Assembly: GCF_011057715.1 (NCBI RefSeq)
Contig: NZ_LNGH01000055.1
Coordinates: 1-47,024 of the forward strand
Reading direction: 5' to 3'
DNA length: 47,024 bases
Origin: Marinitoga sp. 38H-ov
GTDB lineage: Bacteria > Thermotogota > Thermotogae > Petrotogales > Petrotogaceae
Shown here: positions 25,942 to 31,763 of the stretch, piece by piece
Layout: every line of letters starts with the position of its first letter
How positions within the stretch are numbered: position 1 is the first letter of the stretch
The notes under the pieces: model-generated
Databases searched by the model: none
What the model was told of the DNA's origin: nothing
Seen by the model: the letters and a program-made list of their open reading frames with translations, nothing else
Made by a program: the position numbers and the translations under genes

Positions 25942-27123
25942 TTATTCTATATTTATTTCATCTCTATTTTTTTCTGCAAATATTTCTTTGAAAATGCTAT
26001 GTAAGTCCCCTTTCGAATATTGGCCACCTTTTCTTTTAATATCTTCGTCTATTTCTTCTAAACTATTTAAACCTTTTATATTAGATACTACAACCTTTCC
26101 CTCAGGTTCATTTAATATTTTTTGATATTTTGAAACAATATCAATATTTGGTTTTACGGTTTCTATTTCATCTAAACTTTTTACTTTTTCATCTTTTATT
26201 ATATCTTCTATAGTTTTTTCTGCTTCATTTAAAATCTCTTCTTCTGAAATTTCTTCTTTTGTTTCATTTAAAACTTCTTCAGTTTTTTCCTCATCATTTT
26301 CTGTTTTTTCTTCATTTTCAATTGTATCTTCAAGATCTTCTATATCAAGATTGACATTATCATTAACTTCTATTTCTTCTTCTAATAAACTATCAACATC
26401 TATTTCTTCTAAATTTTGTTCAATATTTCCAACATCTTCATCATTAACATCGAGTTTATTTTTCATTTTTTCATATTCATCCCATAATTCTTCTAATTCA
26501 TCAATTTTCACTTCTAATACTTCTTCTAATGGTATAGTCTCTTCTTCAATCTCTTCATCATTTTCAACAATTTCTCTATTTTCAATTTTATTATCTAATT
26601 CAGATTTAAATGAGTATCTTCTGAAAATAAAGAAATATATTAGAAAACTGGTAATTCCTATAATCATAAATATAACAGCTGTTGTTATAATATAATAAAA
26701 TAATCCTATTTTAACATCTGTTGTTGCTTCATTTGTTGTTGAAGTAGCATTTGATTGAATCTTTAAAGATTTAAAACTCAATTCTTCTTGAATATTACCT
26801 TCTTTAATACTTTTTAAAGCTAAAGAAACCTTGGGATCATCCGTATAATATTTTAAATAATTTTCTGCTTCATTATATTTTTTTAAATAAAATTTTGTCC
26901 AACCTAACATATATCTAATATCAGGATATTTTATTTCAATTTGGGCTGTTAATTTCAAAGCTTCTTCAAAAAATTTTTCAGCGTTTTCATATTCTCCTGT
27001 CTGAAAAGCGCTTTTCCCATTAAAATAATAGATTTCTGCTTTATCCAATGCAGTTTGAGATAAAGAAATAATAGAAAATATTAGAAATATTATCATCATT
27101 ACTTTTTTATAATAGTATCCCAT
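25942..27123 (-). CDS. Membrane-anchored TPR protein with long acidic cytoplasmic domain
   Basis: 393 residues. A signal-like helix (about 8-22), a TPR block (about 28-100, KAEIYYFNGKSAFQTGEYENAEKFFEEAL and WTKFYLKKYNEAENYLKYY), a second membrane helix (about 142-167), then about 220 residues very rich in Glu, Asp, Ile and Asn, probably coiled coil or disordered. If the first helix is a cleaved signal, the TPRs lie outside and the acidic part inside. The start overlaps the end of the lipase-like gene by 25 bases, so the two belong together. I do not recognise the family; TPRs suggest it holds a partner, possibly its neighbour. Confidence 0.72.
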   Translation of the reverse strand: MGYYYKKVMMIIFLIFSIISLSQTALDKAEIYYFNGKSAFQTGEYENAEKFFEEALKLTAQIEIKYPDIRYMLGWTKFYLKKYNEAENYLKYYTDDPKVSLALKSIKEGNIQEELSFKSLKIQSNATSTTNEATTDVKIGLFYYIITTAVIFMIIGITSFLIYFFIFRRYSFKSELDNKIENREIVENDEEIEEETIPLEEVLEVKIDELEELWDEYEKMKNKLDVNDEDVGNIEQNLEEIDVDSLLEEEIEVNDNVNLDIEDLEDTIENEEKTENDEEKTEEVLNETKEEISEEEILNEAEKTIEDIIKDEKVKSLDEIETVKPNIDIVSKYQKILNEPEGKVVVSNIKGLNSLEEIDEDIKRKGGQYSKGDLHSIFKEIFAEKNRDEINIE

Positions 27124-29642
27124 AATTCAAATCCCCCATTTTTTCTAATAAATATTAAAAATGAATTATTATAATTTTCAACATCAATAATATCAAAATC
27201 TAATATAGATTGATAATCCCCTCCAAAAACCTTATTATTCAAATCTATATAAGTAATATAATTTTTATCAAATATCCATAATAAATTATTATTTTCTAAC
27301 AACTTCAATTTACCAACATCACTATTACCCAATATTTGAACCTTTTCATTTTTCGTATCATATATAATTAATTTATAATCCGATGTCAACAAATATATTA
27401 AATATGCACGAGAATAATAATCTACAAAATTCCCTATTTCTTCCTTTAATAAAGCTTCTATACCTGCCTTATTAACTATTGTAATCCAATTATTTCCTTT
27501 TCTTTTTAATATTTTATTTCCTAAAATAATATAAAATTCATTATTTATAACCTTCATTGAAATAAATTGACTACCTTCTGATATCATAGTTTCATTTTCA
27601 TATATATTAGCCAATCCATCGACATAATCAACATATATGTATCTTCTTATTTCTGGTAAATAATATACATTATTGTGTAATTCAAAATCTTTATTTTTAA
27701 TTTTAATGAAATTAAAGGCGCTTTCATCTATAGCATAAACACCATCATCTGATGCAATATATAATCTATCTTTATATTTAATACTTCCTAATATATTCTT
27801 ATTAAAAATATTGTTTCCATCCAAATCATATGCACCTTTATTTGTAAGAATAATAATATTATTATTTAAATTTACAATTTTACCATAATTTATATTTTCT
27901 AAATATAATAATTCTTCTTTAAATTCTAATAATTCTTTTTGTGTATATTTACTATTTTTTTGAAAAATAATGGTACGATTTTCTTTAGATTTCTCCTCAG
28001 ATTTAATCTTTTCAACTACTTCAATTGTTGTTTCAGGAAATTTATCATCTTCAATTTTAGGTATATCAACCTTTTCAATGTTTTTAGATAATATACTTTG
28101 TACAAAAGATAAGACATCATTATCAGAATAAAGCTTATTATATGGCATATCATATGTATAAAAATTCGCACCATTTATTCTTGCACTATCTATAGTAACC
28201 AAACCATCCCCATATCCTTTTATAAATTCCGGATAGAAAGTTGATAATTTAGTATTAGAAATATGAATATTTATATCTGGAATTGTTCCTGTAATAATAT
28301 TATATTCAATATCTTTTCTTATATTTGAATTTTTTAATTTTTTTATAAATTCCGAATCAGGTAAAAGTTCTTTATAATAAGATGAAATTAACTCTAATTT
28401 AGAAGTTATGTTTAAATACAAGGAATTGTATTCTTCTTTATTCAAACCATATGTTAATTCTATTATTTCGGGACTCTTTTTATATATAACATTATAATAA
28501 ATCGGATTAACTATATTAATTCCATTGTTTGGAGGAGAAAACATCGTTATCGTTCTAACATTAGTTATTTCTGGATGTTTTTCTAAAGCATATCTTACAA
28601 TTAAACCTCCTATACCTTGAGTTATTATATCAAACTGCTTATTTTTTTTAGCTTTTAATTCCAAAGCAAATCTCTCTGCTTCAAACTCCAAGTAACTATT
28701 TGAACCTGTTCTTATATAATAACCAAAAAAGGCATCCATATACTTTTTTGGTTTAGTTTCTAATAAAGGATATTTATAATTCCATATTGTCCTATTAGGA
28801 AAATATAAACTCCAAATATTTTCGCCATATATATTGTTTATTGTCTGAGTATTTGGTATAAATCCTAAAAAATTATTATCGATTCCTGGAACTAATATAA
28901 TATCCGGTTCTAATGATGATGGTTTTTCAATTAATGTTTTTAAACCAAAATCTACTTCTTTTGGGTTAGGATCTACATATAGTCCGAATTTCGAAAAATG
29001 AAAAGTATTTGCTTGTACTACATATGTTCCCAAAGATTCATCTTTATATATTTCACATCCAGCCAATTTTTTTACTACTGGTGGGTTATCATCAGAAGCA
29101 TAAACTATTGAAAAATTATTAAAAGAATCACCATAATATAATTCCATTGGTAATTTATATTTTATTTTAATAGGTTTCAAGGAAGACTCATCTTTTTTAT
29201 CATCAGGAATTATTTCATATATGGGACCATATAAATTTCCCAAAGTTTTTAAATTTTGATATTCAGCTGAGTTTTCTTTTAATGATTTAATAGTAAAAGT
29301 CTTTTTATATTGAAATGCATCTGGAGGTACATATATAAATAAATTTGAAATAGATGCGCTTTCTGCTTGACTTTCAACATTTAATTTTTTTGTAGAAAAT
29401 GTCGGAACTATAATTATTAAAAGTATTATTAATAATATTATTGCTAATACTGATGAAATAAATATTATTTTCTTCTTTCTATTAAAGTTTTTAAAATCTT
29501 TCAAAAATTCTATAATTTTTTTTATAGAAAAATTTTTTAAAGGTATTTTCTTAAAAATACCTAAAATACCGCTTATATTAAATTTAGATTTTTTTTCATT
29601 TTTATTACTCTCTTCTGATATATTTTTTCCTTTTTTTGCCAT
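27099..29642 (-). CDS. Membrane-anchored lipase-like protein lacking the nucleophile serine
   Basis: 847 residues. A Lys-rich cytoplasmic start (1-55), one membrane helix (about 59-81), a beta-rich domain (about 95-230), an alpha/beta-hydrolase-like domain (about 240-530) and a C-terminal part (from about 570) made of repeated short strands such as NNIIILTNKGAYDLDGN and KDRLYIASDDGVYAIDE, resembling a beta-propeller. The hydrolase part has the layout of PGAP1/LCAT-like lipases (DIILVPGI, then FDIITQGIGGLIVRYALE, later YGDGLVTIDSA). The usual GHSxGG elbow reads TQGIGG, so the Ser is Gly. It is either a non-catalytic binding protein or works differently. It overlaps the TPR gene. Confidence 0.6.
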   Translation of the reverse strand: MAKKGKNISEESNKNEKKSKFNISGILGIFKKIPLKNFSIKKIIEFLKDFKNFNRKKKIIFISSVLAIILLIILLIIIVPTFSTKKLNVESQAESASISNLFIYVPPDAFQYKKTFTIKSLKENSAEYQNLKTLGNLYGPIYEIIPDDKKDESSLKPIKIKYKLPMELYYGDSFNNFSIVYASDDNPPVVKKLAGCEIYKDESLGTYVVQANTFHFSKFGLYVDPNPKEVDFGLKTLIEKPSSLEPDIILVPGIDNNFLGFIPNTQTINNIYGENIWSLYFPNRTIWNYKYPLLETKPKKYMDAFFGYYIRTGSNSYLEFEAERFALELKAKKNKQFDIITQGIGGLIVRYALEKHPEITNVRTITMFSPPNNGINIVNPIYYNVIYKKSPEIIELTYGLNKEEYNSLYLNITSKLELISSYYKELLPDSEFIKKLKNSNIRKDIEYNIITGTIPDINIHISNTKLSTFYPEFIKGYGDGLVTIDSARINGANFYTYDMPYNKLYSDNDVLSFVQSILSKNIEKVDIPKIEDDKFPETTIEVVEKIKSEEKSKENRTIIFQKNSKYTQKELLEFKEELLYLENINYGKIVNLNNNIIILTNKGAYDLDGNNIFNKNILGSIKYKDRLYIASDDGVYAIDESAFNFIKIKNKDFELHNNVYYLPEIRRYIYVDYVDGLANIYENETMISEGSQFISMKVINNEFYIILGNKILKRKGNNWITIVNKAGIEALLKEEIGNFVDYYSRAYLIYLLTSDYKLIIYDTKNEKVQILGNSDVGKLKLLENNNLLWIFDKNYITYIDLNNKVFGGDYQSILDFDIIDVENYNNSFLIFIRKNGGFELWDTIIKK

Positions 29643-29644
29643 AT

Positions 29645-30487
29645 CTACTTCCTTTCAATTAATGATTTAATATTAATTAATTCATCAACTAAAAAATTCA
29701 TTTTCAGTTTTGAAAGTGATAAAATCGATTCATCAAATAATGAATCTGCATATTTTTTTGCTTTATCTTGATTCATTATTTTTAATAAAGTGTATTTATT
29801 TTCATCATTACTTAAATCCTTTCCAACTTCATCAAATGTACCGTGTAAATCTTTTAAATCATCATAAATTTGAAATGCTAGACCAAAACTTTTACCAGTA
29901 TTTTTAAGAATTTCAAAATCATTTTGATTATCCTTTAATAACGAGGCAAAAGCAAAAGAAAACTCAAATAAAGCAGATGTTTTCTTTTCATACATATCCA
30001 ATATTTGTTTATCTGATGGAACAATTAATTTTTTTTCAAAAGCAACATCTAAAGTTTCTCCTTCAATTAATTTAATTACAGTTTCAGAAAAGAATCCATA
30101 TAGTTTTGATAATTTATTATCATAAAAAATTTTATATGGTAAAATAAAACCCAAATCACCTGTTAAAATTGCTCTCCATTCTCCAAATTCTTTATGACTT
30201 GTCCTATTTCCTCGCCTATAATCGCTATTATCTATTGCTGGCAAATCATCATGTATTAAAGATGCTGTATGTAAAATCTCTATTGCAAAACCTATTTTAA
30301 ATAATTTTTCTTCTTCTACATTATAATATCGTCCGATATTATAAATTATCCAGGGACGTAATCTTTTTCCTCCTGAAAAATATGAATATCTAATTGTCTC
30401 ATTTAAAATGTTTATTAATTCTAAAGAATTAAATAATTCTTTAGATGCATTGTCAAAAACTTTTTTAAATTCATTTATCTTCATCAT
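29645..30487 (-). CDS. Polyprenyl (farnesyl/geranylgeranyl) diphosphate synthase
   Basis: 280 residues, trans-isoprenyl diphosphate synthase. GGKRLRPW binds substrate; the first Asp-rich motif is LIHDDLPAIDNSDYRRG (near residue 75-92, DDxxxxD form), the second is QIYDDLKDL; KTSALFEF and GKDLSNDENKYT complete the pattern. The DDxxxxD first motif is that of bacterial IspA-like enzymes; chain length is not certain. I start at ATG 30487, seven bases after GAGGGG; an ATG at 30505 lies further up, inside the end of the nuclease gene and before that site. It would use products of the MEP pathway (dxr at 2742). Confidence 0.9.
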   Translation of the reverse strand: MMKINEFKKVFDNASKELFNSLELINILNETIRYSYFSGGKRLRPWIIYNIGRYYNVEEEKLFKIGFAIEILHTASLIHDDLPAIDNSDYRRGNRTSHKEFGEWRAILTGDLGFILPYKIFYDNKLSKLYGFFSETVIKLIEGETLDVAFEKKLIVPSDKQILDMYEKKTSALFEFSFAFASLLKDNQNDFEILKNTGKSFGLAFQIYDDLKDLHGTFDEVGKDLSNDENKYTLLKIMNQDKAKKYADSLFDESILSLSKLKMNFLVDELINIKSLIERK

Positions 30488-31013
30488 ATTTTTTCCCCTC
30501 ATCAAAAAAATGCTTTTTTATTGTATCTATATCAAAATTTTCTAAAAACTTTTTAAATTCATTTCTTTTATCTTCTTCGGTATTTTCTTCCTCATTTTCA
30601 ATAGGAATAAAAGACAAATCAATTCCATTATCAATAATCAATTTATCTTTAATATAAATAGGTATTCTTTTTTTCACTGCTAGTACAAGTGCATCCGATG
30701 GTCTTGAATCAAGATTTATTTCTATTCCATCTTTTTCTAAAATAATATTTGAATAATATATATTATCTTCCATGTTATGTATTTCTACTCTATTTATATC
30801 ATATCCTTCATTTTCTAATATAGAAATTATCAAATCATGAGTTAAAGGACGTGGAGTCTTTTGCTCATTTATTGCTAACGCTAAAAAGGTAGCTTCACAA
30901 GCTCCTATCCATATTGGAATACCTAAATGTGTATTTTCTATTCTCAAAAAAACTACTGGAGAATTAGAAATTTTATCTAATCCCATTGTAATAATATCAA
31001 CCTTTTTAAACAT
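30471..31013 (-). CDS. BFN-domain protein (bifunctional nuclease family)
   Basis: 180 residues. The BFN domain fills the first 140: PVVFLRIENTHLGIPIWIG, EATFLALAINEQKTPRPLTHDL and the signature SRPSDALVLAVKKRIPIYI. The tail is Glu/Asp/Lys-rich. The family has a known structure from Thermotoga maritima (TM0160), and plant members show DNase/RNase activity; the bacterial role is not settled. The C-terminal UVR motif found in some members is not evident. The end overlaps the polyprenyl synthase start. Confidence 0.88.
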   Translation of the reverse strand: MFKKVDIITMGLDKISNSPVVFLRIENTHLGIPIWIGACEATFLALAINEQKTPRPLTHDLIISILENEGYDINRVEIHNMEDNIYYSNIILEKDGIEINLDSRPSDALVLAVKKRIPIYIKDKLIIDNGIDLSFIPIENEEENTEEDKRNEFKKFLENFDIDTIKKHFFDEGKKYDEDK

Positions 31014-31025
31014 AATATCACTTCC

Positions 31026-31763
31026 TTAATTTACTTCAGAAGATAATAAATTAAAAATGTGATTTCTTAAGTCCTCTTCACTTTCAAAATCCTTAGGAAC
31101 TAAAGGTTTAAAAATTTTTATATTAACATTATGTGGATTAAGCAAATGTTCTCCTTTTTTTATTATGTAATATGTTCCATCAATTGCAACAGGAAGTATT
31201 TTTATATTATATCTATACGGAATCATTAAAGATCCTTTTTTAAATGGCTTTACTTTTCCATCTAAAGTTCTAGTACCTTCTGGAAAAATAGTCAATTTTC
31301 TTCCTTCTTCTAATTTTCTTTTTATATCACGAAGAGCAGCCGCCGCTTTGGAAGGATTTTTTCTATCAATAAATACAGAACCTAACGCTTTTATAAAACT
31401 TGCAATTATAGGGGCTTTTTCTAATTCCTTTTTTGCTATAAATCCTGTAGGATATATATAACCTATTATTAACGGAATATCTAATAAACTTTGATGATTT
31501 GCAACAATCATATATTGTTCATTTTCAATTTCATTTATATCTATTTCACTTTCAACATTTACTTTTATCCCTAATAATTTAAACGCATTTTTCCCAAATT
31601 TATATACAACTTTTCTCAAATAAGAATCCGCCTTTTTTTCACCTGATATTTTGCTTATAATTTTTGAAATTAATAAAACAATAGAACCATATATAACTAC
31701 ATATCCAAAAAAACCAATATAAAACCATATAGTTAATAAAAATCGTTTTATTAAATTAATCAA
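31026..31763 (-). CDS. plsC: 1-acyl-sn-glycerol-3-phosphate acyltransferase
   Basis: 245 residues. Adds the second acyl chain to lysophosphatidate at the inner membrane. An N-terminal hydrophobic helix (about 8-33), the catalytic block NHQSLLD near residue 88, GFIAKKELEKAPI, VFIDR, and the substrate-binding FPEGTRT near 155 are all present. It overlaps thiI by eight bases and is followed by the BFN gene after 12 bases. Together with the polyprenyl synthase this gives the unit a lipid theme. Confidence 0.93.
   Translation of the reverse strand: MINLIKRFLLTIWFYIGFFGYVVIYGSIVLLISKIISKISGEKKADSYLRKVVYKFGKNAFKLLGIKVNVESEIDINEIENEQYMIVANHQSLLDIPLIIGYIYPTGFIAKKELEKAPIIASFIKALGSVFIDRKNPSKAAAALRDIKRKLEEGRKLTIFPEGTRTLDGKVKPFKKGSLMIPYRYNIKILPVAIDGTYYIIKKGEHLLNPHNVNIKIFKPLVPKDFESEEDLRNHIFNLLSSEVN

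Follow-up and report, generated by a model that had tools for sequence, protein, structure and literature searches.

Our analysis indicates that an 847-aa protein of Marinitoga sp. 38H-ov, encoded on the minus strand at 27099..29642 (ATG start) of the 47,024-nucleotide stretch of DNA analyzed here (the window), is probably an inactive lipase that serves as a scaffold of the Thermotogota envelope, where it would bind together with a co-inherited, membrane-bound TPR protein. In the mechanism we propose, a positively charged N-terminus and a single transmembrane (TM) helix would tether the protein to the inner membrane and leave its remainder exposed on the outer side, as its predicted topology suggests, and a membrane-proximal ZU5/GAIN-like domain would carry the lipase-fold domain, followed by a propeller. 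The loss of the nucleophile and the catalytic His appears to date from early in the history of the phylum; docking surfaces may be offered by the inactive lipase domain and by the propeller, and the protein could form a complex with the TPR protein encoded next door. The original prediction had described a membrane-anchored lipase homologue with Gly in place of the catalytic Ser; it included neither the co-inherited TPR gene nor the ZU5/GAIN/FIIND-like N-domain with its H-x-S/T turn. A phylum-wide, single-copy gene with a partner gene in an odd envelope (the toga) is worth attention, and enzymes that are catalytically dead yet retained by selection point to binding functions on which annotation by homology errs; in this case, it would say lipase.

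Domain architecture

The AlphaFold2 model of the 847-aa protein, computed from its sequence and those of 18 named relatives (mean pLDDT, 82.4), bore out the originally described combination of a TM anchor, a beta-rich N-domain, and a propeller-like C-half. A lysine-rich N-terminus precedes a TM signal-anchor (residues 55-78; 29409..29480), which is a helix in the predicted model, followed by a ZU5/GAIN-like beta domain (about residues 92-240; 28923..29369), supported by its own predicted model and fold matches. The lipase-fold domain (residues 231-520; 28083..28952), supported by the model and a profile alignment and catalytically dead as judged by its sequence, leads to a C-terminal beta-propeller (residues 568-847; 27102..27941) with about seven blades by strand count in the predicted model; all of these features lie on the minus strand. 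A TM-like stretch occurs within the first 140 residues in 65 of 66 full-length orthologue rows, and because the residues preceding this stretch carry more positive charge than those following it in 56 rows, the topology of the anchor is probably N-in, C-out. BamB structures ranked high in the Foldseek search with the modeled propeller, but many unrelated propellers scored similarly, and the best propeller matches were generic. A phmmer search of the whole protein against the PDB gave no match, an NCBIfam search gave nothing useful, and a whole-length profile against the PDB returned designed propellers and low-complexity stretches as its best rows, which were uninformative; the domain profile A3 did better against the PDB.

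Lipase fold and loss of two catalytic residues

The model of residues 231-520 matched the lipase BlEst2 (6wpy; Z, 21.4; rmsd, 3.0; 222 residues aligned), with other lipases next, so that the structure prediction yields the lipase-type alpha/beta-hydrolase fold that had been anticipated. Pfam profiles for Palm_thioest (PF02089; 23.2 bits against a gathering cut-off of 26.8) and DUF7379 (18.5 bits against 33) remained below threshold with the window protein; at an E value of 0.1 across 32 members, DUF7379 was matched in 29, Palm_thioest in 20, and PGAP1 in 12. The second-best profile match was chain BK (mS79) of PDB 6z1p, which has a lipase-like elbow region, SYSTSG. The sequence elements originally pointed out are all present, namely the strand FDII (residues 337-340) with T341, the elbow TQGIGG (341-346; 28605..28622, minus strand), the helix LIVRYALE (347-354), and the acid-site motif YGDGLVTIDSA (477-487; 28182..28214, minus strand). 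In the HMM alignment, the elbow is set on GHSQGG of the Burkholderia-type lipase (1hqd), Gly343 (codon GGT) aligns with the nucleophile Ser in lipases of known structure, and GDGvVsvksA is set on the acid motif qnDGvVskcsA of the Burkholderia-type lipase. Asp479, within a (N/G)DGxV motif, is invariant across the 69 rows that have a residue at that position.

The view that a single residue had been lost did not hold, as the catalytic His is missing along with the nucleophile. The catalytic His that follows the acid motif in the Burkholderia-type lipase aligns with a non-His position here. Across columns 479-539 of the orthologue alignment, His reaches a maximum of 8 rows per column, at 507 in f7 (8/8 rows), and residues 480-515 are entirely free of His in 49 of 69 rows. 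Since the nucleophile Ser is replaced and no conserved catalytic His remains, two of the three triad residues are, from the aligned sequences, gone from the lipase domain. True lipases of g30 genomes (L142-L144), which served as a control, retain AHSMGG and NDGMVP together with a His further on.

Each row of the 73-row alignment represents a different genome among the 78 that gave a match, G021, G027, G055, G061, and G091 being left out, and its position 343 is Gly in 55 rows, Glu in 11, Asp in 6, and Ser in 1. Gly thus stands in place of Ser in most rows, but all 11 Glu rows and five of the Asp rows belong to f9, and the remaining Asp row belongs to f11. Likewise, the expected absence of Ser from all orthologues was confirmed in 72 of 73 rows but not in G020 (L009, f1), whose elbow reads IIANSVGG and in which the His is not conserved either. 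A 1,015-aa Caldisericia protein (L116:4429-7473) is another lipase-like protein in which Gly replaces Ser (AHGIGG); its architecture is different, and it keeps both Asp (GDAFV) and His (GNTHSIL). A literature search under "pseudolipase" found nothing, and a search on Ser-to-Gly lipases gave nothing on point among the matches listed.

Distribution and selection

Orthologues were found in 20 of 21 genomes of the family and in 78 of 103 Thermotogota genomes (protein query; E, 0.001). These tallies come from the genome searches and not from a contig pattern scan in which the nucleophile position was restricted to G, E, or D, the 19 matches of which are uninformative on Ser-bearing outside relatives. 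With the same kind of query, the protein is absent from the sister family f2 (0/17 genomes). Weak f2 profile matches of 748-753 aa were rejected as orthologues, as they align over the TM stretch only and lie beside unrelated genes; presumably, they are chain-length-determinant proteins. A further weak f2 match, also rejected, is an intact lipase with AHSMGG. The pseudolipase frame is broken at different places in four draft genomes (G006, G007, G013, and G017; L134-L137), likely through draft-sequence error, and the TPR frame of G007 is short too. From gene order, we take the pseudolipase to be TM0162 of Thermotoga maritima, because the neighboring DUF151 and synthase of G092 match the solved TM0160 (1vjl) and 2ftz almost exactly; the expected locus tag appeared in no paper of the literature searched.

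In a tree built from 71 of the 73 rows (two short rows were dropped), the four states at position 343 need four changes, with three being the minimum possible; Glu arose once and Asp twice, and Gly occurs in each of the two deepest branches, the midpoint root serving for drawing only. The Gly-for-Ser change is not a matter of chance because it is common to nearly the whole phylum. Against three congeners, omega was 0.068-0.098 for the lipase domain, 0.067-0.094 for the ZU5-like domain, and 0.13-0.27 for the propeller region, and purifying selection on the dead lipase domain is strong. Because a Ser-less hydrolase fold is conserved in the orthologues under purifying selection, a non-catalytic role of this domain is likely. 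The binding or scaffolding role first suggested stands to that extent, although the His is lost as well.

A co-inherited TPR partner gene

The partner gene (25942..27123, minus strand) shares 25 bases with the pseudolipase gene in the window, and its product has a signal peptide, a periplasmic TPR region, one TM helix, and an acidic cytoplasmic tail, with a weak, sub-cutoff match to BamD (OM_YfiO). It comes next after the pseudolipase in 50 rows outside f9, in which E, G, and L are invariant (50/50). In f9 (L054-L057, L062, L063, L065, L067, L072-L074, L076-L079, and L088), the TPR gene is located elsewhere in the genome, unlinked from the pseudolipase, which is directly followed by a gene for a polytopic membrane protein starting MIHLFLAHFVADHGFT or similar; the synthase gene was not found adjoining the pseudolipase at these loci. 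Asp or Glu at residue 343 and the relocation of the TPR gene co-occur within f9, which is a single clade.

Using a TPR-region profile (E, 1e-8), we found the TPR gene in 77 of 103 genomes; both genes occur in 77, neither in 25, the pseudolipase alone in 1 (G055, a genome 71% complete), and the TPR gene alone in 0, counts that refer to genomes rather than events, such that the Fisher value overstates independence. Few events account for the absence of the pair, namely those in f2, in two genomes of f7, in g30, and, doubtfully, in G019 and G086. The 17 f2 genomes without the pair may represent one loss and the two f7 genomes another; as a single deletion can remove both of two adjacent genes, two losses are clearly needed only in g30, a group of four f9 genomes lacking both the pseudolipase and the TPR gene.

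The conserved upstream neighbors form a block (29645..31763, minus strand) that we place outside the proposed complex. It comprises a polyprenyl (FPP-type) synthase gene (29645-30505), named by Pfam, and two genes that we take to be DUF151 nuclease-like (30471-31013) and acyltransferase-like (31026-31763). Because 22 of the 25 genomes that lack the pair still have DUF151, two genes upstream, the absence of the pair is not a loss of the whole locus. G019 and G086 are without both the pair and DUF151, and their absences may reflect only a missing contig. In G011 and G018 (f1), the pair is kept and DUF151 was not found. The co-inheritance of the two genes suggests a binding or holding role rather than fat cutting, and the TPR partner gene, rather than lipids, is the strongest functional lead.

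A ZU5/GAIN-like domain and possible self-cleavage

Folded alone from 18 rows, the N-domain reached a pLDDT of 86.7, and the predicted model is a ZU5-type beta-sandwich, matching the ZU5 domain of ankyrin (Z, 9.6), the GAIN domains of CD97 (8.2) and BAI3 (7.7), the FIIND of NLRP1 (6.0), and UNC5b (5.7), with Ig-type noise at approximately 3.7-4.4. His-Phe-Ser (residues 215-217; 28992..29000, minus strand) is placed by the model in the turn that links strand 206-213 to strand 218-223, before the last ZU5-like strand, as a candidate self-cleavage site. HFS is the cleavage site of PIDD and Nup98 (PMC3210808, in excerpt), HL↓T/S is that of GAIN domains (PMC11697300, in excerpt), and autoproteolysis has been proposed for ZU5 domains that accompany lipases in surface proteins of bacteria (PMC3482391, in excerpt). 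It is conceivable, though on balance rather unlikely, that the domain cuts itself at HF↓S (216/217), in which case the pseudolipase-propeller portion would be retained on the membrane stub solely by non-covalent pairing of strands, the arrangement seen in adhesion GPCRs, and could be shed or pulled off; this would add to the scaffold rather than exclude it. The fold matches and the position of the turn favor such cleavage, as does the pattern across 70 rows, in which H-x-S/T occurs in 44, S/T without H in 8, and neither in 18, with H always accompanied by S/T (44/44) and with F or L as the middle residue in 20 of the 44, including the row of the present protein and the Thermotoga rows. However, the middle residue of the other 24 is non-canonical and mostly small, whereas work on CARD8 stresses a buried Phe at this position (PMC3210808, in excerpt), and the motif is absent from 26 rows, being lost in f7 (FPG, 8/8) and in 10 of 15 f9 rows, with Q for H in 8 f1 rows. 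The co-change of H with S/T on the tree amounts to four independent pairs and is underpowered, the Pfam ZU5 profile gave no match at an E value of 1 in any of 18 members, and the residue equivalence of the turn to known cleavage sites is one of topology. If the domain does self-cleave, it would offer a simple, thermostable bacterial model of a mechanism known mostly from work on animal receptors.

A more far-reaching version, which we regard as improbable, would make the protein a bacterial counterpart of the adhesion-GPCR design, in which a self-cut (HF↓S), non-covalently held dead-lipase-propeller ectodomain would report to, or be held by, the co-inherited single-span TPR protein with its cytoplasmic tail. 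Such a design would act as an envelope sensor or tether that is released by force or by a ligand, and it would be ancestral in most of the phylum.

Other readings of the lipase domain

The original proposal that the dead pocket binds or carries an outer-membrane lipid or lipoprotein is similarly doubtful. The lipase fold and the probable extracytoplasmic position are consistent with it, as is the order with the polyprenyl synthase and acyltransferase-like genes, conserved in many genomes; yet this order may be old operon structure, as DUF151 stays where the pair is lost, and the toga protein paper, in the part available, makes no mention of the pseudolipase (PMC3387000).

It is very unlikely that the protein is still an enzyme, for example, a transferase, acting through another nucleophile such as a relocated Ser or through the conserved Asp. 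The invariance of Asp479 counts against a scaffold, and S316, S430, and S486, well conserved across orthologues, may do so as well, together with His507 of f7 and Ser343 of G020, as parts of a different catalytic set. The strong constraint seen in omega would also fit an enzyme. Alpha/beta hydrolases with an Asp nucleophile exist, and the f9 rows in which residue 343 is Asp or Glu resemble them in this respect, as does the one f11 row with Asp. Nevertheless, most members have Gly at 343, there is no family-wide His after the acid, with most rows free of any in 480-515, and the oxyanion-loop Gly253 is Asp in all nine f8 rows. That the Gly reflects a mutation confined to this genome or an error in its sequence, as a GGT codon one base from a Ser codon might suggest, is refuted by the orthologues, with Gly in 55 rows and no Ser in 72.

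Comparison with known systems

The inactive scaffold that we favor shares its fold, elbow strand and helix, and GDGxV motif with lipases of the Burkholderia/BlEst2 type (1hqd and 6wpy), Palm_thioest, PGAP1, and DUF7379; unlike those lipases, it has neither the nucleophile Ser nor the catalytic His and is fused to an anchor, a ZU5-like domain, and a propeller. The modeled N-domain resembles the ZU5/GAIN/FIIND domains of ankyrin, UNC5b, CD97, BAI3, and NLRP1 in fold and, in many members, in its H-x-S/T turn, but no sequence match was found, and the motif is lost in several clades here. In contrast to adhesion GPCRs, the N-domain comes after an N-terminal anchor, in reverse order. A probably extracytoplasmic propeller (cf. 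BamB) with a periplasmic TPR partner (cf. BamD) recalls the BAM complex, although the propeller matches are generic and both proteins here have a TM helix. Neuroligins are known dead alpha/beta-hydrolases, and there, as proposed here, a binding module has been made from a hydrolase fold; the present protein belongs to the lipase-type branch and is bacterial, and the likeness is by analogy.
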